Origin: Anaerolineae bacterium
GTDB taxonomy: Bacteria; Chloroflexota; Anaerolineae; Aggregatilineales; Phototrophicaceae
Assembly (NCBI GenBank): GCA_013360465.1
Contig: JABWBO010000031.1
Coordinates: 1 to 39,588, forward strand
Reading direction: 5' to 3'
DNA length: 39,588 bases
Every line of letters begins with the position of its first letter. Positions within the stretch are counted from its first letter, which is position 1. The notes under the pieces were generated by a model, which saw only the letters and a list, made by a program, of their open reading frames with translations, was not told where the DNA came from and did not search any database. Of this stretch, positions 25,594 through 34,842 are shown piece after piece. Position numbers and translations under genes: made by a program.

Positions 25594-27009
25594 ATGCTGC
25601 ACAGCCAACGTCGTTCGCCAATTTTCTTAGCGGGCAGTTTCTTCGCCGCCATCCTTGAACGGCTGACTGCCAGGTTGAGCAAATTCACCGCCCTGCGCCG
25701 CTGGACGGGCGAAAACCCAGCGGCGCGGCTGGAGCAGCAGATCGCCGAGCGCACCCGCGACCTGGAGGCGGCACAGCGGCGTCTGACGCAGCTTGACCGG
25801 CTCAGCGCGGTGATGAACCGCGCCGCCGACTATGCTGAAGTGCTGAAGGGGGTTGCCGATGAGGTCACTGCGCCCGCCGTTGGTGTCTGGCTCCTCCTGG
25901 TGGATGCCGAACCGTACGCTGCGAAGACCGCCCTGCTGGCGGCGGCGCGCTCACCGGGACAGGATGTGATGCCCGCTAACCGGCAGATTCCCGCCTTCGT
26001 TTTTCCGCTGCCGGACGAACCACTGCGGGTCATCACGGATGTGGAACGGCAGCCGGACACGCCGCTGACGGCATTCTGCCGTGAAGCCGGTTTGCGAGCG
26101 GTCGCCAGCGCCGGACTCTTCGCCGGCAGCCGGACGCTCGGCGCGCTCGTCTTCACAGGCGAAACGCCGCTGGAGTTCAGCGCTTCCGACCTGGAAACGC
26201 TGCGCATCGGCGCACAGGTCGCCGTCGTCGCCATCGAGCGTCTGCAGGCGGTGGAATCGGTCAGAAGCCGGATTCTCGCCGGCGTCAGTCACGACCTGCG
26301 CGCGCCGCTCAACATCATGCTCAATTACACCGAGTTCGTCGCGCAGGGCATGATGGGCGAGGTCAACGACAGCCAGCGCGAGGCGCTGAACAAGGCTTTA
26401 GAGGGGGGGCAGCGCCTGTTGGACATGATCAACGACGTGGTGGATGCCGCCCGCATCGAATCGGGGATGCTGCGTCTGGTCATCGAAGACGACATCGACC
26501 TGTACGCCGAAATGGCGGAAGTCAAACGCATGGCGCTGGCGCTGCTGCACGGGAAGCCGGTGCGCTATTTCGAAGACATCGACCCGCATCTGCCCCGGAT
26601 CGTCGGCGACCGCCGGCGCATCCGTCAGATTCTTCACGCCCTGGTCGCCAATGCCGCCAGGCTCACCGAAAGCGGGTCGGTGACGGTCAGCATCAAACTG
26701 CGTGCCGCCGAACTGCTGTTCGCGGTGATCGATACCGGTCCAGGGATTCCTGTTGAAGATCAGGACCGCCTCTTCGCACTGTTTGTTCCGACGGACGCGT
26801 CGGAAGCGCGAGTCGGACGCAGAGCCGGGCAGGCAATGAGGCTGCCGATTGCCCATCATCTGGTGCGGGCGCACGGCGGGCAGCTTTGGCTGCACAGCGA
26901 ACCACATCGTGAACCGGAACACGGCGCGGCGTTCTTCTTCACGCTGCCCGTGCGGTCGCCGGCGCTGCTCCGGCAGATGCAGGAGACGCCGGTCCGTCAG
27001 GCTTTTTAA
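25594..27009 (+). CDS. GAF-like histidine kinase with altered ATP lid
   Basis: A 471-aa soluble kinase. A short hydrophobic/basic N-terminus (about 10-25) may touch the membrane; then a coiled coil (RLEQQIAERTRDLEAAQRRL), a GAF-like domain (about 75-215) and HisKA with H-box GVSHDLRAPLNIM. HATPase_c has ALVANAARLT as N-box and G1 DTGPGIP, but the G2 loop, normally GxGLGL, reads RRAGQAMRLPIAHHLV. Loss of the glycines in the ATP lid suggests weak or no kinase activity, or a phosphatase/sensor role. AGGAT precedes ATG 25594. It is followed by a receiver, a HEAT protein and another receiver on the same strand. Confidence 0.88.
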   Translation: MLHSQRRSPIFLAGSFFAAILERLTARLSKFTALRRWTGENPAARLEQQIAERTRDLEAAQRRLTQLDRLSAVMNRAADYAEVLKGVADEVTAPAVGVWLLLVDAEPYAAKTALLAAARSPGQDVMPANRQIPAFVFPLPDEPLRVITDVERQPDTPLTAFCREAGLRAVASAGLFAGSRTLGALVFTGETPLEFSASDLETLRIGAQVAVVAIERLQAVESVRSRILAGVSHDLRAPLNIMLNYTEFVAQGMMGEVNDSQREALNKALEGGQRLLDMINDVVDAARIESGMLRLVIEDDIDLYAEMAEVKRMALALLHGKPVRYFEDIDPHLPRIVGDRRRIRQILHALVANAARLTESGSVTVSIKLRAAELLFAVIDTGPGIPVEDQDRLFALFVPTDASEARVGRRAGQAMRLPIAHHLVRAHGGQLWLHSEPHREPEHGAAFFFTLPVRSPALLRQMQETPVRQAF

Positions 27010-27042
27010 GTCAGGTCGCCTTACGCGGTGAAAGAAATATCC

Positions 27043-27450
27043 ATGTTCAATCGTCACTGCTACCTCTATGTCGATGACGACGCATTGAGCCGGGAAATCC
27101 TCCACATGATCATGCAGGTGGTAATGGGTGTGGAGTGCTTGCAGATGTTTGAAAACAGCGCGGCTTTTGCTGAGCGCCTGCAGGCACTGCCAAGCCCGCC
27201 CGATGTCATCCTGATGGACCTTCACATACAGCCTTTGAACGGCTTCGCCATGCTGGAAGTCATTCGGAGTTTGCCGCAGTTTGCGTCGGCGCGGGTCATT
27301 GCCCTGCCCGTCTTCATCACTAACGAGGAAGCCGCTCAGCTTCGCGCCGGCGGTTTCGATGGCGTCATCGCAAAGCCCTTGAGCGTCACCACGTTCCCTA
27401 CGCTGATTCAACGGGTCTTGCAAGGTGAAAGTGTATGGCACGTCGCCTAA
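27043..27450 (+). CDS. Stand-alone response regulator receiver
   Basis: Single REC domain of 135 aa. Acidic triad Asp11-Asp13 in LYVDDDALSRE, phospho-acceptor Asp59 in VILMDLHIQPLNG, and Lys in GVIAKPLSV. The usual Thr/Ser position after strand 4 reads IALPVF, so the switch Ser/Thr appears to be lost, which may alter signalling. ATG 27043 is used; GTG 27028 would add five residues. It sits between the GAF kinase and the HEAT-repeat protein. Confidence 0.85.
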   Translation: MFNRHCYLYVDDDALSREILHMIMQVVMGVECLQMFENSAAFAERLQALPSPPDVILMDLHIQPLNGFAMLEVIRSLPQFASARVIALPVFITNEEAAQLRAGGFDGVIAKPLSVTTFPTLIQRVLQGESVWHVA

Positions 27451-27470
27451 TCTACCTGAGCGAGAGAACG

Positions 27471-28085
27471 ATGAACGGAAGTCAGCAGGTCGATCCTTCC
27501 ATTGACAGCCTGGTCGAGGCGCTGGACAGCCCGGACTGGGACGAGCGGACCGCCGCCTCTGAACGGCTGATCGCAATGGGCAGCATGGCTTACCCGCTGC
27601 TGATCGATCAGATTCGCGTCGGGTCGATGCGCCGCGCCGTCAGCGCCGCGCGCGTCCTTGCGGCACAGGATCATTCCGTCGTCTACGACACGATGACCGG
27701 GCTGATCGCTTCCGAAAACCCGCTCCTGGGGCAGATCGCCGTTGAATATGTGGCGCGGCAGCCACATGCCACCGACGTGCTGCTCGACAACCTGCATATC
27801 AGCACCTACCTGGTGCAGATCTCCATCGTCCAGGCGCTCGGTATGCTCGGTTCGGCAAAGGCGCTGGAGGCGCTGCTGCACATCCTGAGCGCGCCGAATA
27901 CCGGCAGCTCCCTGCGTCTGACCGTCGTCAGCGCGCTGGGCATGCTGGGCGACCCGCGCGCCATCCCGCATTTGCAGGCACTCCTGGACAGCGCCGACGA
28001 ACACATGGTCAAGCGCGTCAAACGGGCGCTGGAAAATTTCGCGCATTATCTGGATTCGGACGAAGGGCAAGCGAAGAGTTCATGA
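27471..28085 (+). CDS. HEAT-repeat protein in a two-component cluster
   Basis: About 204 aa, nearly all helical HEAT-like repeats: SLVEALDSPDWDERTAASER, MRRAVSAARVLAAQDHSVVY, LLGQIAVEYVARQPHATDVL, LVQISIVQALGMLGSAKALE, SLRLTVVSALGMLGDPRAIP, HMVKRVKRALENFAHYL. Such solenoids bind proteins. Placement between two receivers, with an ATGA overlap into the second (28082-28085), suggests it binds a receiver or the kinase. The start is uncertain: ATG 27435 has AAGGTG upstream and overlaps the previous gene; ATG 27471 has a weaker GAGAG. I keep the shorter form. Confidence 0.8.
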   Translation: MNGSQQVDPSIDSLVEALDSPDWDERTAASERLIAMGSMAYPLLIDQIRVGSMRRAVSAARVLAAQDHSVVYDTMTGLIASENPLLGQIAVEYVARQPHATDVLLDNLHISTYLVQISIVQALGMLGSAKALEALLHILSAPNTGSSLRLTVVSALGMLGDPRAIPHLQALLDSADEHMVKRVKRALENFAHYLDSDEGQAKSS

Positions 28086-28486
28086 AACTCCTGCAAGGGA
28101 AAAGGGTCTTTTACGTGGAGGACGATGTCAGAAACCGGTTCATCGTCAAGACCATCCTGGAACGCGCCGGCGCGATCCTCGATTTTCATTACTGGGGCGG
28201 CGGCGATCTGATCGTTCGCATGGAGGCGTTCGCGCCGCTGGATATGATCCTGCTGGACCTGTCGCTGCCCGGCGGCTTGAGCGGCTACGCTGTCTATGCC
28301 TCGATCCGCTCGCGGGTGCAGTTCGCCGGCGTGCCGGTTGTCGCGGTGTCGGCGCGCGACTCCTCTCTCGAAATTCCACAGGCGGTTGCCAGGGGCTTCG
28401 ACGGCTACATCAGCAAGCCTATCGATATGGCGCGCTTCCCAGAGCAGATCGCCGCGGTGCTGTCCGGCGTCGGCGTCTGGGAGTAA
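28082..28486 (+). CDS. Stand-alone response regulator receiver
   Basis: Single REC domain of 134 aa. Acidic residues Glu13-Asp15 in YVEDDVRN, phospho-acceptor Asp59 in MILLDLSLPGGLSG, Ser in VAVSARD and Lys in GYISKPIDM. Translationally coupled to the HEAT-repeat gene. It has no output domain, so it probably works through binding, perhaps to the HEAT solenoid. Confidence 0.9.
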   Translation: MKLLQGKRVFYVEDDVRNRFIVKTILERAGAILDFHYWGGGDLIVRMEAFAPLDMILLDLSLPGGLSGYAVYASIRSRVQFAGVPVVAVSARDSSLEIPQAVARGFDGYISKPIDMARFPEQIAAVLSGVGVWE

Positions 28487-28510: not shown

Positions 28511-28546
28511 CGCCGCGCCTCACGGGCGTATGATGCGAGCGCGGCG
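28511..28546. terminator. Hairpin at the convergent gene boundary
   Basis: CGCCGCGC (28511-28518) pairs with GCGCGGCG (28539-28546), 20-nt loop, between the converging receiver gene and the 28520-29812 gene. On the minus strand a pyrimidine-rich stretch follows. It might act as a weak two-way terminator, though part of it lies inside the last codons of the minus-strand gene. Confidence 0.3.
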
Positions 28547-29812
28547 CAGATCGTCCTCTCCCATCTGAAGCAGACGGTCGAGCATGTCGAAGATCTCCTG
28601 TGCGCTGGTCTCCACCAGACGAACGCGTCCGCGATACGCTTCGCGCAGATTCTCCAGCATCCCCCAGGGATCATCCCCTGGTCCGGTCACCAGATGGTTG
28701 ACCACCACGCCGCCCAGCACCAGCGGGAGATAGGCGTAGACCAGATCGGGCGGGAGCTGTCCGGCGAGCCAGCGCACTACCTTGTTGGCATAGGCGATGC
28801 GTTCGGCGCGGTCGCCCAGGTTGGTGCGCACACGCGGGCGGATCAACGTGAAGCCCAGCAGGATGGCATCGTAGATCACGCTTTCGTACAGGAACCGCCC
28901 GACGATCTCGCCGCCCGTCCAGCGGGCGACTTTCTCGTCGTGGGCGAGCGTCTGCGCGAGGACCTGGAACCAGCGCTGATCCTCGTAGCGGAACGACGGA
29001 TCGCTGTCCGAGCGGTTCGAAAGGGCGAAGGTCAGCAGTTTGGCGATAGCGGCTGCCTCGCCGGGATGCAGCGGCATGCCGTGCAGCCCAAAAACCTCAT
29101 CGGTGGAACGCAGCAGCGGCTCGAACACCTCCGCTCGTATGAACGAGGTCGCCACCAGGCGCGCCGCGTCGAGGTGTTCGCCGATGTGCGTCTTCTCCTC
29201 GTGCATCTGCTGCTGCGCCCACAGGGTCTCGTAGCTCGTCTTGGGCATGACCTTGGGCGGGGGCAGCTGCTTCGACGCCAGATCGAAGGTGAGCAGGATT
29301 CTTTCACCGCGCATGTCTTCCAGCGGGTCGGCGAACTCGATATCGCGCAGCGCCTGCACCTTGAACGGCGAGACCGCCAGCGCCGACGGCGGCGCGCCCC
29401 CGGCGGGCGAACGCACCGGCGTGCCGCCCCGGCTGCGCATCTTGATGCTGACCTGAATGGGCAGCGCCGGATTAGGCTGGGTGGGCAGCATGGGCAGGAT
29501 CGGCAGGCGCAGCACCCCCACTTCGCCGCCGCTCAGGGTGTGGGCGGCGGCGCCGCGCGGCGCGGCGATCTTGACCGGCGCGCCGCGTTCATCCTTGCTG
29601 GGCGCCTGAAGCTCCACGCGCACCTCGACCTGGCGGTCGATCATGTTTTGCAGCAGCACGACGATCTCGACCGGCTGGTTATAGTAGGCGCTTCGTGGGA
29701 ACAGACCGACCGCCGCCTGCACGTCGCCAAGATCGATACGCAGCCCGCCGGCAATCGCGCCGAGGACATCGGGATAGAGAGGGTCAAACCCCAGAGCGTC
29801 GGGACTCGTCAT
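28520..29812 (-). CDS. Unknown two-part protein, paralogue A
   Basis: A 430-aa protein I cannot assign to a named family. The N-terminal about 165 residues look like an Ig/arrestin-type beta sandwich (VEIVVLLQNMIDRQVEVRVEL, GGEVGVLRLPILPM). The C-terminal about 230 residues are helical: PLHPGEAAAIAKLLTFALSN, GGEIVGRFLYESVIYDAILL, LVYAYLPLVLGGVVVNHL. The next gene upstream encodes a diverged paralogue with the same order of motifs. No signal peptide or continuous membrane span, so cytoplasmic. AAAGGA precedes ATG 29812. It is last of a four-gene minus-strand block with two GAF-PAS-cyclases, so it may be an effector, regulator or scaffold for them; this is inference from position. Confidence 0.6.
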   Translation of the reverse strand: MTSPDALGFDPLYPDVLGAIAGGLRIDLGDVQAAVGLFPRSAYYNQPVEIVVLLQNMIDRQVEVRVELQAPSKDERGAPVKIAAPRGAAAHTLSGGEVGVLRLPILPMLPTQPNPALPIQVSIKMRSRGGTPVRSPAGGAPPSALAVSPFKVQALRDIEFADPLEDMRGERILLTFDLASKQLPPPKVMPKTSYETLWAQQQMHEEKTHIGEHLDAARLVATSFIRAEVFEPLLRSTDEVFGLHGMPLHPGEAAAIAKLLTFALSNRSDSDPSFRYEDQRWFQVLAQTLAHDEKVARWTGGEIVGRFLYESVIYDAILLGFTLIRPRVRTNLGDRAERIAYANKVVRWLAGQLPPDLVYAYLPLVLGGVVVNHLVTGPGDDPWGMLENLREAYRGRVRLVETSAQEIFDMLDRLLQMGEDDLRRARIIRP

Positions 29813-29845: not shown

Positions 29846-31186
29846 TTACAGATGTGTCGGGGTGAAGCCGTGTCTTTGACCGATACGCGCCAGAATCTCG
29901 TTCGCCAGTTCGAAGATTGGGCGCTCGTCGTCGCGGCTGTTGAACACCCGCTCCTCCAGACATTTGCCGATCTGGCGCACGACATCCGAGGGATGTTCTC
30001 CCTCCAGCGGAATTTGATCGCTGCGGATCGCGCCGCCGATGATCAGGGGCAGATAGGTCAGGCTGAAATCCATCCCCTGGCGGCTGCGCAGCGCCGTCAC
30101 GATACGCTCGCGATAGGCGACCATCTCCTCTGGCGTGCCCAGTTCCTCGCCCGACGCTTCTTCGACCAGCGCGAAGGCGTAGTCGAACGCATCGGCGATC
30201 AGCTCCTCATACAGGTAGCCCAGGATGACCGGCGCGGGTCTGCCGAAGACGCGCTCGTCCTTTTCGGCATAGCGGATGAACTGGCGGAACCAGTGGGGCA
30301 GTCGGGGACGCTCGATATCGAGCGGGTCGCGCTCGACCATCGCGGCGATATTGTATTCGCGCGCGGCAATGTGTCCGTGCTGGTTCTGCTTGGGCGTCGC
30401 ATACTCCAGGATCAGCGTCAGCAGCTTGGCGATCACCACCGCCTCCGCTTCGCGCAGCGGAAAACCGGAGTCTTCGAAGCGTTCCAGCGTCACCTTCAGG
30501 AGCGGCTCGTAGAGATTCGTCCGCTTCAGCTGCGGCAGCGTCTCGATCTGAATGCGCTCGGCAACCTCGTGCAGCAGCGGGCGCGGGTCGTCGTAATCGG
30601 ACAGGCGGCACAGGCTGATCCAGCCCGGCGAAAAGTCGGTGTACTTCGCCACGCCGCCGGTCAGCAGGTTCAGCGGCGCTTCCAGCGCGGCGTTCAGGCG
30701 CTTACGCGATGTGACCCAGCTCAGGTCCTTCAGTCCTTCGAGCAGTTCCTGGTTTTCCGGCGGCAGGTCCTGAGGGCGGAACCTGCCGCCCCCTTCCGTC
30801 AGGCGAATGCGCTTGGGCTTTGCTCCCAGCGTCTTGACGGCGAATTCGACGGTGATGACATATTCGCCCGGCGCGGTATCGGGCAGGGTCGAGGCGGGCA
30901 GGACGATATAGCCGACTTCGGCGGGTTTAATGCCGACGAGCAGGCGGTTTGATTTGGTGACGAAGCGTTCGCGCTGCTTCTTCAGATCGACCAGCGGCAG
31001 CTGAAGCGTCATGGTGACATCGACATCGACATTCGTCGCGTTCTGCACCAGCATGATCACTTCGAAGGGACGCCCGATGCGCACGACGCGCGGGCGCGTG
31101 GCGACTGCCAGCTGCACGGCGTCGGCATTGCAGCGTTCGCCGCCGGTGAGAAAGCCCAACAGATCAGGATAATTAGCGATAGGCAT
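29846..31186 (-). CDS. Unknown two-part protein, paralogue B
   Basis: A 446-aa paralogue of the 28520-29812 product. Matching landmarks: FEVIMLVQNATNVDVDVTM versus VEIVVLLQNMIDRQVEVRV; REAEAVVIAKLLTLILEY versus GEAAAIAKLLTFALSN; VILGYLYEELIADAFDYAF versus IVGRFLYESVIYDAILLGF; SLTYLPLIIGGAI versus VYAYLPLVLGGVV. The beta-rich part covers about 25-125 and the helical part about 200-440. The two have clearly diverged, and B has extra sequence in the middle helices, so they may form a heteromer. B has its own predicted -10 in an inverted repeat at 31218-31234, 93 bases after the cyclase genes. Function unknown. Confidence 0.6.
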   Translation of the reverse strand: MPIANYPDLLGFLTGGERCNADAVQLAVATRPRVVRIGRPFEVIMLVQNATNVDVDVTMTLQLPLVDLKKQRERFVTKSNRLLVGIKPAEVGYIVLPASTLPDTAPGEYVITVEFAVKTLGAKPKRIRLTEGGGRFRPQDLPPENQELLEGLKDLSWVTSRKRLNAALEAPLNLLTGGVAKYTDFSPGWISLCRLSDYDDPRPLLHEVAERIQIETLPQLKRTNLYEPLLKVTLERFEDSGFPLREAEAVVIAKLLTLILEYATPKQNQHGHIAAREYNIAAMVERDPLDIERPRLPHWFRQFIRYAEKDERVFGRPAPVILGYLYEELIADAFDYAFALVEEASGEELGTPEEMVAYRERIVTALRSRQGMDFSLTYLPLIIGGAIRSDQIPLEGEHPSDVVRQIGKCLEERVFNSRDDERPIFELANEILARIGQRHGFTPTHL

Positions 31187-31279: not shown

Positions 31280-33031
31280 TCACCGCTTCATACCGACCAC
31301 GCGGTACATGACGGTGAAGTCCGGGCGGTTCTTGGTCTTGCGCGGAGCCAGCGCCTCACAGTCGAAGTGATCTTTGACCGCCTCGTAGGTCTCGGGGCTG
31401 AGGAGTACGTCGCCCTTCCCGGCGTTTTCTTGCAGCAGCTTGGCGAATTCTACAGCGTCGCCGATGGCGGTGAATTCGCGCCGCTCGGCGCTGCCGACAT
31501 TGCCCAGGACCGCCGTCCCGGTGTGTACGCCGATGCCAAAATAGAGCTGCTCGTCGCCGGCGAGGACTTCGTGCAGCGCCTCGACATCCATAATCGTGGA
31601 GAGCGCAGCGCGCACCGCCCGCAGCGCATGATCGCCCTGGGGGTTGAGCTGCGTGTTGAACAGCCCGGTCACGGCGTCGCCGACATATTTATCGACCATG
31701 CCCTCGAAGAGGTTGATCGAGTCGCTGGCGACGCTCAGGTAGCGGTTGATGATCTCCATCAGCTTTTCCGGCTCAAGCTGTTCGCTGAACTGGGTGAAGC
31801 CGCGCACATCGGCGAACATGACCGTGATTTCGCGCGTCTGCCCGCCCAGATTGGCGAGATCTTCGCTGCGCAGGTTTTCCACCAGCGCCAGGGGCACGTA
31901 GCGGCGCGCCTCGGTGAGCTGGGACTCGCGCTCGTGCTGTTCGGTCAGATCATCCAGCACCAGCACCACGCTGCCGCCGCTGCCGCTCAACGGGCTGATG
32001 CTGGCATCCCAGATGCGCCGCCCCTGTTCCGGCGGCGTCACCTCGAATTCCAGCCGCACCTGGGTTTCGCCGGCGCGCACCGCCGCCATGCGCTGGGCGA
32101 GCGGCTGGCGCAGATAGGGCAGGACGGTGAACAGCGGCATGCCGATCACCTGATGCGCCGAAAGATGGGTGATCGTCTCGGCGGCATGGTTGAACGCCGT
32201 GATCTCGTCGCGCCCGTTCAGGGTGATCAAACCGCTGATCACCGAGGTGAAAATGCTGTCCACCAGGTCGCGCATGGCGGTGATCTCGGCAAGCTGCGCC
32301 CGCACCGCTTCGAACAGCCGGGCATTTTCGATGGCGACCGCCGCCTGATTGGCGAAGGCGGTCAGCAGGTTCAGTTCGCTGTCCTTGAAGACGGCGGTCA
32401 GCGCCCGATTGTCGCAGTAGACCACGCCGATCACTTCCCCGCGCACGATCAGCGGCACGGCGAGGATGCTGCGCAGTTGATAGCCAACGATGCTTTCCAT
32501 GCTCTGGTAGCGCGGGTCGGCGCGGGCGTTGTCGGTCAGCACGGGCTGAGCGGTGCTGTACACCTCGTTGATGATGGTGTTGCTGACGATGAACTCGTCG
32601 CGGCTGAGCTGTTCGCGGTCCACTCCGCGTGCCACGCGGAATTCCAGCGCACCGGTCGCCTTGTTCGTCAGCATGATATAGCCGCGCTCCGCCCCGGTCA
32701 GCTGTACGACGGTATCCATCACCTGGTTCAGCACGCTGTTGGTGTCGAGCGTGGAGTTGATCAGCGCCGTCGTCTCGGCGAGCGCACGCAGCTGACGCAG
32801 CTCGATCTGCCGGGAGATCAGCGAAATGCTCAGCGCATCCAGCCGGCTGTGCAGCTGGCGCAGACGCTCCAGCGTCCCGCTCGGCAGGCTCATGGCGCGG
32901 CGGCGCAGCACCACCCGTTCTGAACGGAAGACCTCTTCCAGCGTATCGACATCGGACATGATCTGCCGAAGCTGTTCCTGTGCCGACCCGCCGCTTGTCC
33001 GCCTGCTCATGCGCGAGGTTTGGTCGTTCAT
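31280..33031 (-). CDS. GAF-PAS-class III cyclase, metal-binding (C1-like) half
   Basis: A 583-aa soluble protein: N-terminal coiled coil (1-85), GAF (about 85-240, AERGYIMLTNKATGALEFRV, FANQAAVAIENARLF), PAS (about 255-370), class III nucleotidyl cyclase domain (about 395-583). The cyclase part keeps both metal-binding Asp (Asp408 in MFADVRGFT; Asp452 in DKYVGDAV) and Lys448. The catalytic helix normally reading G-D-T-V-N-L-A-A-R is here GDAVEFAKL: the transition-state Asn is Glu528 and the Arg is Leu532. A homodimer should therefore be inactive or nearly so. The neighbour encoded just upstream supplies exactly what is missing. Four bases separate the two genes. Product cAMP or cGMP is not decided; Thr521 at the purine position is common in bacterial adenylate cyclases. 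Confidence 0.92.
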   Translation of the reverse strand: MNDQTSRMSRRTSGGSAQEQLRQIMSDVDTLEEVFRSERVVLRRRAMSLPSGTLERLRQLHSRLDALSISLISRQIELRQLRALAETTALINSTLDTNSVLNQVMDTVVQLTGAERGYIMLTNKATGALEFRVARGVDREQLSRDEFIVSNTIINEVYSTAQPVLTDNARADPRYQSMESIVGYQLRSILAVPLIVRGEVIGVVYCDNRALTAVFKDSELNLLTAFANQAAVAIENARLFEAVRAQLAEITAMRDLVDSIFTSVISGLITLNGRDEITAFNHAAETITHLSAHQVIGMPLFTVLPYLRQPLAQRMAAVRAGETQVRLEFEVTPPEQGRRIWDASISPLSGSGGSVVLVLDDLTEQHERESQLTEARRYVPLALVENLRSEDLANLGGQTREITVMFADVRGFTQFSEQLEPEKLMEIINRYLSVASDSINLFEGMVDKYVGDAVTGLFNTQLNPQGDHALRAVRAALSTIMDVEALHEVLAGDEQLYFGIGVHTGTAVLGNVGSAERREFTAIGDAVEFAKLLQENAGKGDVLLSPETYEAVKDHFDCEALAPRKTKNRPDFTVMYRVVGMKR

Positions 33032-33035
33032 GCTT

Positions 33036-34781
33036 TCAGCCGCCCTGCCTGAACACTTCGTAAATACGGGTCATCTGCCGCCGTCCCTTGACCTGAAGGG
33101 AGTCGCGCTCGTCGAAGCGGATACCCGTCAGCTGCTGGCGCGAGGAGCGGCGCAGGACATGGTTAAGCGTATCCTCGCTGATGATGATCTGCCCCGGCTT
33201 GGCGTTCTCCTGCAGACGCTTTGACAGGTTGATGGCGTCGCCGATGGCGGTGAAGCTGCGCCGGTTGACGCTGCCGACGTTGCCCAATGTCGCCACGCCG
33301 GTGTGAATGCCGATGCGGTACTGGTGATTGTCCCGCCCGATACCGAGCCGGTCGTACAGGTCCACAAAGGCGTCGCGCAAATCCAGCGCCATGTTGACGG
33401 CGCGCAGGGCATGGTCATCCGCCGGGTTAAGCTGACTGTTGACCAGCACCATGACCTCATTGCCCATGTACTTGTCGATGATGCCCCGCCCGTTGTGGAC
33501 CACCTGCGTCGTCACATCGAGGTACTGGTTGAGTACCGCCATCAGCGCTTCCGGGTGGTCGGTCTCGTCCATCTCGTAGGGGCAGGCGAAGATGAACATC
33601 GAGGTGATCTCGCGGCGTTCGCCGCCCAGATCGAGCCTGGAGATCTGTTCGATATTTTCGATCATGCCAGGCGGCAGATAGCGCCGCAGCATCTCCAGCG
33701 TCTTCTCGCGCTCGCGCTCGTCGGTCAGATCGTCCATGACCATCGCCACGCCCTGAATCGACTGGGCGGCGCTGCGCAGCGGGCTGATCTTCAGGCTGAG
33801 CGTGACATCGCCGCGCTGTGGGATGGCGGTCTGCGTCTCCAGCTTGATGGGTTGGTTTCCTGTGAGGACGCCGCGAAACTGCTGCGACAGATCGCCGATG
33901 TAGGGGTAAAGCTGCTGCACCGGCTTGCCGACGGCGCTCTCCGGCGTCGTCGCCAGGATTTCGGCGGCGGCGCGGTTGAAGGTGGTGACGGTGGCTTCGG
34001 CGCTGGTGGTGATCACCCCGCTGATGATCGAGGCGAAGATGTTCTCCAACAGCTCCTTGGTGGCGGTGATCTCGGTTAGCGTTGCCTGCACGTCGGCGAA
34101 GAGACGGGCGTTCTCGATGGCGACGGCGGTCTGGTTGGCGAACGCCTGCATCAGGTTCATCTCTTTTTCAGTGAAGACGCCTTCCTTGAGGCGGTTATCG
34201 ACGTAGATCGCGCCGATCAGCGTCTCTTTGGTGATCAGCGGCACGCAGATGATCGAACGCAGGGTGAATTTGGCGATGGTCTCGCTGCCCAACATGCGCG
34301 GATCGCTGGAAGCGTTGTCGGTGACCATCGGTTTGCCGCTCGAAAGGACGTGATCGATCACGGTGGTGCTGATGTCGTCGCCGACGCTGCGGGTGGACTC
34401 GCGGGCGATGCGCACCTCGACTCTGCCGGTCACCAGATCGCGCAGCAGGATATAGCCGCGCTCTGCCCCGGTCAGATGGACGATGACCTCCATCGCCTGG
34501 GTGAGAATGTCGTCGAGGTCGAAGGAGGTGTTGATCAGCGCCGAGGTCTCGATCAGCACGCGGAGCTGCGCCAGTTCGGTATAGTCGCTCTGCAAGAGGC
34601 GTTCCAGCGCCCCCATCTGGTCTTCGACCTGATCCAGCAAGCGCATGCCCTCCACAGGCAGCGACAGATCGCGCTGGTGCAGCAGCAAGTCCTGCCCACG
34701 CAGCCCGGTAATCGTCTGCTGGTGCAGCGCGCGAAGCTGGCGCAGTTCCCCTACGATGTCGGTGTCGGCGGCAATCTGCAT
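33036..34781 (-). CDS. GAF-PAS-class III cyclase, transition-state (C2-like) half
   Basis: A 581-aa paralogue of the next gene: coiled coil (1-75), GAF (about 75-230), PAS (about 245-355), cyclase domain (about 385-581). Both metal sites are lost: the FADVRGFT segment has become MFIFACPYEMDETD (Phe398 at the first Asp) and GD has become GN (DKYMGNEV, Asn441). The other half of the active site is intact: Lys437, Thr511, and Asn518 and Arg522 in GDAINLSKR. Alone it cannot bind catalytic metals. I use ATG 34781, with AGGGA eight bases upstream; the ATG at 34826 would sit almost on the transcription start implied by TATAAT at 34843-34848. First gene of the four-gene block. Confidence 0.92.
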   Translation of the reverse strand: MQIAADTDIVGELRQLRALHQQTITGLRGQDLLLHQRDLSLPVEGMRLLDQVEDQMGALERLLQSDYTELAQLRVLIETSALINTSFDLDDILTQAMEVIVHLTGAERGYILLRDLVTGRVEVRIARESTRSVGDDISTTVIDHVLSSGKPMVTDNASSDPRMLGSETIAKFTLRSIICVPLITKETLIGAIYVDNRLKEGVFTEKEMNLMQAFANQTAVAIENARLFADVQATLTEITATKELLENIFASIISGVITTSAEATVTTFNRAAAEILATTPESAVGKPVQQLYPYIGDLSQQFRGVLTGNQPIKLETQTAIPQRGDVTLSLKISPLRSAAQSIQGVAMVMDDLTDEREREKTLEMLRRYLPPGMIENIEQISRLDLGGERREITSMFIFACPYEMDETDHPEALMAVLNQYLDVTTQVVHNGRGIIDKYMGNEVMVLVNSQLNPADDHALRAVNMALDLRDAFVDLYDRLGIGRDNHQYRIGIHTGVATLGNVGSVNRRSFTAIGDAINLSKRLQENAKPGQIIISEDTLNHVLRRSSRQQLTGIRFDERDSLQVKGRRQMTRIYEVFRQGG

Positions 34782-34842
34782 GGTACTGGTCCCTGGGTGC
34801 ATGTCCTGGCGCGCAAACCGGCGCATGATGAGTCACGCTTTC

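Follow-up and report, generated by a model that had tools for sequence, protein, structure and literature searches.

Class III cyclases form their active sites at a dimer interface, and in both the C1/C2 domains of mammalian adenylyl cyclases and soluble guanylyl cyclase (sGC) one subunit gives the metal-binding Asp residues and the other gives the base-specifying and transition-state residues (excerpts of PMC4174876 and PMC3591389). Catalytic-domain homodimers of sGC are inactive and mixing gives activity (excerpt of PMC3591389), and bacterial enzymes are described as homodimers with all residues in one domain (excerpt of PMC4174876). Here we examine two adjacent genes, A and B, in a stretch of 39,588 nucleotides (the window) from an Anaerolineae bacterium of the Chloroflexota (NCBI GenBank assembly GCA_013360465.1, contig JABWBO010000031.1, positions 1 to 39,588 of the forward strand). 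Judged from their sequences, they very probably encode the paired chains of a class III adenylyl cyclase that works as an obligate heterodimer, in which one pocket is live and the other dead. Both genes encode GAF-PAS-class III cyclase proteins, with intact frames and in the order B, then A:

33036..34826, minus strand: gene B, GAF-PAS-cyclase, 596 amino acids (581 if the start is at 34781), carrying the Lys/Thr/Asn/Arg half of the active site
34116..34520, minus strand: GAF domain of B, residues 103-237
33711..34034, minus strand: PAS domain of B, residues 265-372
33039..33629, minus strand: cyclase domain of B, residues 400-596
33032..33035, minus strand: gap of 4 bases between the B stop and the A start
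31280..33031, minus strand: gene A, GAF-PAS-cyclase, 583 amino acids, carrying the metal-Asp half of the active site
32330..32743, minus strand: GAF domain of A, residues 97-234
31931..32248, minus strand: PAS domain of A, residues 262-367
31283..31846, minus strand: cyclase domain of A, residues 396-583

The first-pass annotation of this DNA had pointed to matching GAF and PAS domains and to a 4-base gap between the genes, and both points hold: Pfam places GAF, PAS and PF00211 in each protein above its curated cut-offs, and the gap is exact. The PF00211 scores (63.8 bits for A and 56.1 bits for B, cut-off 21.9) identify both proteins as class III cyclases, and the two are 42% identical across 547 residues. 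Each contains one PF00211 stretch, not the two cyclase domains in one chain of the mammalian transmembrane type, and Pfam at E values up to 0.001 gave GAF, PAS and cyclase domains only, with no H-NOX haem domain in either protein. Structure prediction from alignments of 40 sequences each gave models with a mean pLDDT (predicted local distance difference test) of 83.2 for B and 79.2 for A, and both predicted chains have the class III cyclase fold. The best structure match of each is 3r5g_A (B: Z 26.5, 186 aligned residues, root-mean-square deviation 2.1; A: Z 26.6, 187 aligned residues, root-mean-square deviation 1.7). The models also match chains of sGC and mammalian adenylyl cyclases, and the Z-scores for nearness of A to C1 and of B to C2 are tied or almost tied. 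With predicted template modelling scores of 0.46 and 0.39, the arrangement of the domains in the models is not reliable.

Catalytic columns were assigned from HMMER alignments to solved cyclases (CyaC 1wc0, CyaB 3r5g, Cya2 2w01 and 6fht) and from a MAFFT alignment with three solved cyclases, and the two methods agree for A and B. Read across metal Asp 1, Lys, metal Asp 2, Thr, Asn and Arg, the residues are D K D T E L in protein A and F K N T N R in protein B. Lys448 and Thr521 of A are both present, and the remaining positions are encoded as follows:

31808..31810, minus strand: A Asp408, first metal Asp, kept
31676..31678, minus strand: A Asp452, second metal Asp, kept
31448..31450, minus strand: A Glu528, in place of Asn
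31436..31438, minus strand: A Leu532, in place of Arg
33588..33590, minus strand: B Phe413, first metal Asp lost
33471..33473, minus strand: B Lys452, base-specifying Lys, kept
33459..33461, minus strand: B Asn456, second metal Asp lost
33249..33251, minus strand: B Thr526, base-specifying Thr, kept
33228..33230, minus strand: B Asn533, transition-state Asn, kept
33216..33218, minus strand: B Arg537, transition-state Arg, kept

B is numbered here in the 596-residue frame from 34826; positions 413, 452, 456, 526, 533 and 537 correspond to Phe398, Lys437, Asn441, Thr511, Asn518 and Arg522 when counted from the ATG at 34781. All twelve residues named in the first-pass annotation are where it had put them, and neither HMMER nor MAFFT places an intact Asp or Asn/Arg elsewhere in A or B. 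A therefore lacks Asn and Arg and B lacks both Asp, and neither is a canonical bacterial cyclase with every residue in one chain. The bacterial homodimeric cyclases (CyaC 1wc0, CyaB 3r5g, Cya2 2w01 and Rv1625c) share family and fold with A and B, but have all residues in one chain and two sites (excerpt of PMC4174876); in the MAFFT alignment CyaC and CyaB show no loss at these columns.

The reciprocal arrangement extends well beyond this genome. The search with B covered 61 genomes, made up of the window's own and 60 relatives, and the loci were then fetched. A complete adjacent pair is present in 47 of the 61 (window included), spanning six families of the window's order, with 30 of the 47 from its own family and B always the upstream gene. 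Among these, one pair lacks the end of A at a contig end (G009) and another the start of B (G058). In a further pair (L076, G047:C23) both genes are split by frame shifts, from sequencing error or decay. Pieces of a pair cut by contig ends occur in 4 of the 61 genomes (G005, G031, G033, G040), one genome has only a B-like fragment (G034), and five, which are the five genomes of family f2, have one intact single gene. The closest named record is the Anaerolineae bacterium metagenome-assembled genome JAEURA010000148.1, whose B is 96% identical and which also has the pair. Most of the genomes are drafts and one genus accounts for 15 of the 61, so the counts are not independent, and changes counted on a tree weigh more than raw counts.

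Among the pairs readable at all needed columns, which drops G009 for its truncated A, 46 of 46 have an A with both Asp and without Arg and a B with Asn and Arg and without the second Asp. A pattern repeated in this way is not due to chance. The homologues thus offer no case of non-reciprocal variation, and every readable pair has the complementary organization of C1/C2, with the Asp pair in one subunit and Asn plus Arg in the other. For residue counts we used 48 A proteins (the 47 pairs and G031), 49 B proteins (the 47 pairs, G033 and G040) and 45 single-copy relatives (5 of family f2 and 40 others). A proteins keep Asp1 and Asp2 in 48/48 and Lys in 46/48, but Asn in only 6/47 (lost in 41/47) and Arg in 0/47. 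B proteins keep Lys, Asn and Arg in 49/49 each and Thr in 47/49 (Ser in 2), whereas Asp2 is kept in 0/49 and Asp1 in 18/48 (lost in 30/48). The single-copy relatives have Asp1, Asp2 and Asn in 45/45, Arg in 44/44 readable, Thr in 43 (Ser in 2) and Lys in 34/45; with Lys missing in 11/45 of these singles, Lys alone says little. The first-pass statement that both proteins keep Lys and Thr is thus right for this genome, but for Thr it fails across the A proteins, where only 24/47 retain it.

Column variability follows the same division. When 190 cyclase-domain columns are ordered by increasing variability, the Asn and Arg columns of A are 171st and 158th and are both invariant in B, and the two Asp columns of B are 130th and 118th and are both invariant in A. 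The triphosphate Lys column is basic (K/R) in 47/47 B proteins versus 35/45 A proteins. Of the 94 columns that the singles conserve, A or B has lost 30. Before residue 390 there are 7 of these, mostly mild changes, and the other 23 lie in the cyclase domain, a distribution in which the sensors are largely retained and the catalytic work is shared out.

The halves also differ in how they evolve. A quick tree was built from 118 rows, with A and B of G047 and B of G058 dropped as too short, and a careful tree from 70 of these rows after removal of the six catalytic columns. Both give the same groups, and the careful tree supports A, B and A+B at 100/99 each. That the catalytic columns themselves cause this grouping was rejected, since it persists when they are omitted, with their numbering verified. 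Counted as the fewest changes on the quick tree, the A clade shows 0 at Asp1 and Asp2, 19 at Asn, 15 at Arg and 16 at Thr, and the B clade shows 0 at Lys, Asn and Arg, 2 at Thr, 13 at Asp1 and 16 at Asp2. For comparison, the domain medians are 7 changes (A) and 11 (B), with 20 unchanged columns per clade. The contrast between kept positions with 0 changes and discarded positions with 13 to 19 argues that the complementary halves are still under selection and are not one frozen accident.

These counts bear directly on two other explanations for the pair. A alone could be the working enzyme, as a weak homodimer, with B a pseudo-enzyme that regulates A by pairing. The retention of both Asp and Lys in A, and of Asn in a few A proteins, would suit such an enzyme, but no A among the 47 has Arg and 23/47 have lost Thr. 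Moreover, the Lys, Asn and Arg of B are unchanged across a tree length of 22.5, although a protein with only a regulatory role could do without them, and we regard this explanation as improbable. Still harder to accept is the proposal that both proteins are catalytically dead and serve only as nucleotide or ligand sensors: although each lacks part of the catalytic set, the full set is jointly kept in 46/46 readable pairs, and within each clade the kept half is frozen and the discarded half drifts.

In the proposed obligate A:B heterodimer, contacts between the chains would run along the helical linkers, the GAF and PAS domains and the cyclase wreath. A would supply the metal-binding Asp408 and Asp452 to the live pocket, and B would supply Lys and Thr to specify the base, the transition-state Asn and Arg, and the basic residue for the triphosphate. 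The other pocket would be dead, having no Asp from the B side and no Asn or Arg from the A side, and may be regulatory. Lys and Thr or Asp at the base-specifying positions generally mark adenylyl rather than guanylyl cyclases. The near-complete retention of Lys and Thr (or Ser) in B is of this adenylyl type, and guanylyl cyclase Cya2 has Glu at the Lys column in the HMMER alignment; the predicted substrate is ATP and the predicted product cyclic AMP (cAMP). Ten places in the window's genome have a cyclic nucleotide-binding domain over the cut-off and are possible cAMP readers. The residues, their conservation, the phylogeny, the gene spacing and the predicted fold of each chain were established directly, and it is from such sequence data that we infer physical pairing, activity, the substrate, the inactivity of homodimers and the ligands of the sensors.

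Several observations weigh against an obligate heterodimer. No pair member was found in four of the 61 genomes searched with B (G015, G025, G032 and G057). The split is not absolute everywhere, as 18/48 B proteins retain Asp1 and 6/47 A proteins retain Asn, and A retains Lys in 46/48, although a dead half would not be expected to need it. Because those six A proteins keep Asn (none keeps Arg), 'obligate' is slightly less certain for A than for B. Finally, isolated sGC catalytic domains mostly form inactive homodimers (excerpt of PMC3591389), so a preference of unlike chains for one another does not follow from the residues.

The window's own genome has further class III domains on contigs C76 and C122. 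The C76 protein (L094:4876-6444, minus strand) combines one cyclase domain with receiver and GAF domains, and none of its six catalytic residues is missing. On C122 (L095:306-3698, plus strand) lies a frame of 1131 amino acids that has two stretches of PF00211 and a region of AAA-type ATPase, an organization that we take to resemble soluble adenylyl cyclase AC10. Read by eye, its first half has both Asp and lacks Asn and Arg, and its second half has the Asp replaced and keeps Thr, Asn and Arg, which is the same split in one chain. Guo et al. 2001 reportedly described complementing mutants of Rv1625c.

With further class III domains in the cell, A or B might instead pair with another cyclase, such as the intact one on C76. 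This is very unlikely, as the C76 protein has a receiver domain, no PAS domain and all six residues, and so needs no partner, and A and B are adjacent, nearly overlapping and of the same layout. An artefact of alignment, frame or assembly is hardly credible even with draft genomes and the broken G047 pair, since HMMER and MAFFT give the same columns and the 46 readable pairs agree, and recent decay of A or B was rejected on a ratio of nonsynonymous to synonymous substitution rates of 0.055 for A and 0.107 for B against the nearest relative (Nei-Gojobori, one comparison).

Turning to the origin of the proposed A:B heterodimer, the direct relatives of the pair are single-copy Chloroflexota GAF-PAS cyclases (family f2, which belongs to the window's order, and other groups), which are 35-46% identical to A and 32-42% to B by BLASTP. 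The two that were run through Pfam have the layout of A and B, and these relatives differ in being one gene with both Asp, Asn and Arg. When the careful tree is rooted on the remaining singles, those of family f2 form the sister group of A+B, with support of 94/79 that falls slightly below the programme's starred level. The simplest history indicated by these data would be a single tandem duplication of a homodimeric GAF-PAS cyclase within one Chloroflexota order, after the split from family f2, followed by reciprocal loss. Since Asp2 of B is lost everywhere and Asp1 only in some, Asp2 was probably lost first.

A scan of 400 genomes of the phylum found 70 with a match at E <= 1e-70: the window's genome, one of its family (G029), 67 with one match, and one with two matches on different contigs (G366), where the scan scored three candidates per genome and may miss a weaker second gene elsewhere. 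Among the 68 matching genomes outside the order, flanks were taken for 40, and each has one member with catalytic coverage. A scan of named genomes gave seven loci. Two of them are pairs (JAEURA010000148.1 and JAFGJA010000518.1), four are singles that have all six residues, and the last is a distant Lewinella cyclase.

Compared with described systems, the pair resembles sGC alpha/beta, which also has two separately encoded homologous subunits of sensor, coiled coil and cyclase, with the metal Asp in alpha and Arg and Lys in beta (excerpt of PMC3591389). However, sGC makes cyclic GMP and has H-NOX, whereas A and B have GAF, no H-NOX and a Lys/Thr set that is not the guanylyl pattern, and they are nested among Chloroflexota relatives. 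Mammalian C1/C2 has one site and one pseudo-site, as predicted for A:B (excerpt of PMC4174876 for C1/C2), but C1 and C2 lie in one membrane chain and A and B are two genes with GAF and PAS. The chytrid NeoR/RGC rhodopsin guanylyl cyclases are obligate heterodimers of unlike subunits, as A:B would be, although RGC1 and RGC2 keep all cyclisation residues and their heterodimerisation has another cause (excerpt of PMC8815786). A/B would work like sGC and C1/C2 and would have arisen independently, but given the absence of H-NOX and of a second in-chain cyclase domain, and the Chloroflexota origin, it belongs to neither. In titles and abstract openings of the open-licence literature we found no natural bacterial two-gene heterodimeric class III cyclase, although an actinobacterial survey (PMC2447327, in excerpt) may already suggest heterodimers of degenerate cyclases.

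If true, the A:B heterodimer would be a clade-wide exception to the textbook rule that bacterial class III cyclases are homodimers. How a two-site homodimer turned into an asymmetric heterodimer with an active and a regulatory pocket is also a question for animal sGC and mammalian adenylyl cyclases, in which that step is ancient. One bacterial order has both the split pair and intact relatives that were never duplicated, along with natural intermediates (B with the first Asp, A with Asn). In what order residues were lost, when the change became irreversible and what became of the dead pocket are questions that can be tested in soluble proteins.

There are some conserved features in the predicted dead pocket. 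On the B side (window 33456-33461), Glu in 39/49 or Asp in 6/49 directly follows the lost second Asp, and on the A side (window 31448-31450), Asp or Glu replaces Asn in 24/47. Perhaps these features mark a regulatory site. A fuller version is tempting but doubtful: that Chloroflexota independently re-evolved the C1/C2 or sGC alpha/beta split, with intact single-gene sisters extant, and that the dead pocket might now be a ligand-binding regulatory site like the mammalian forskolin site.

The genes themselves are closely spaced. A possible A start lies within 8 nucleotides of the B stop in 43/47 pairs, with a 4-base overlap in 20 (the start codons are putative), and A and B are probably co-translated. 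In the neighbour comparison the flanks covered about 5-6 kb in most cases and less at contig ends. The genes at 29846-31186 and 28520-29812, together with six other neighbours, recur as a set only beside the pair of G006, the closest relative, and were rejected as conserved operon partners; beyond G006, the neighbours of the pair give only weak histidine-kinase and SpoU-type matches. In the window, 29846-31186 and 28520-29812 (both minus strand) follow gene A on the same strand, have no Pfam match and are 26% identical to each other. Further along, 25594-28486 (plus strand) runs convergent with the genes on the strand of the pair and encodes, one after another, a histidine kinase, two proteins with receiver domains that share 35% identity, and a HEAT-repeat protein.

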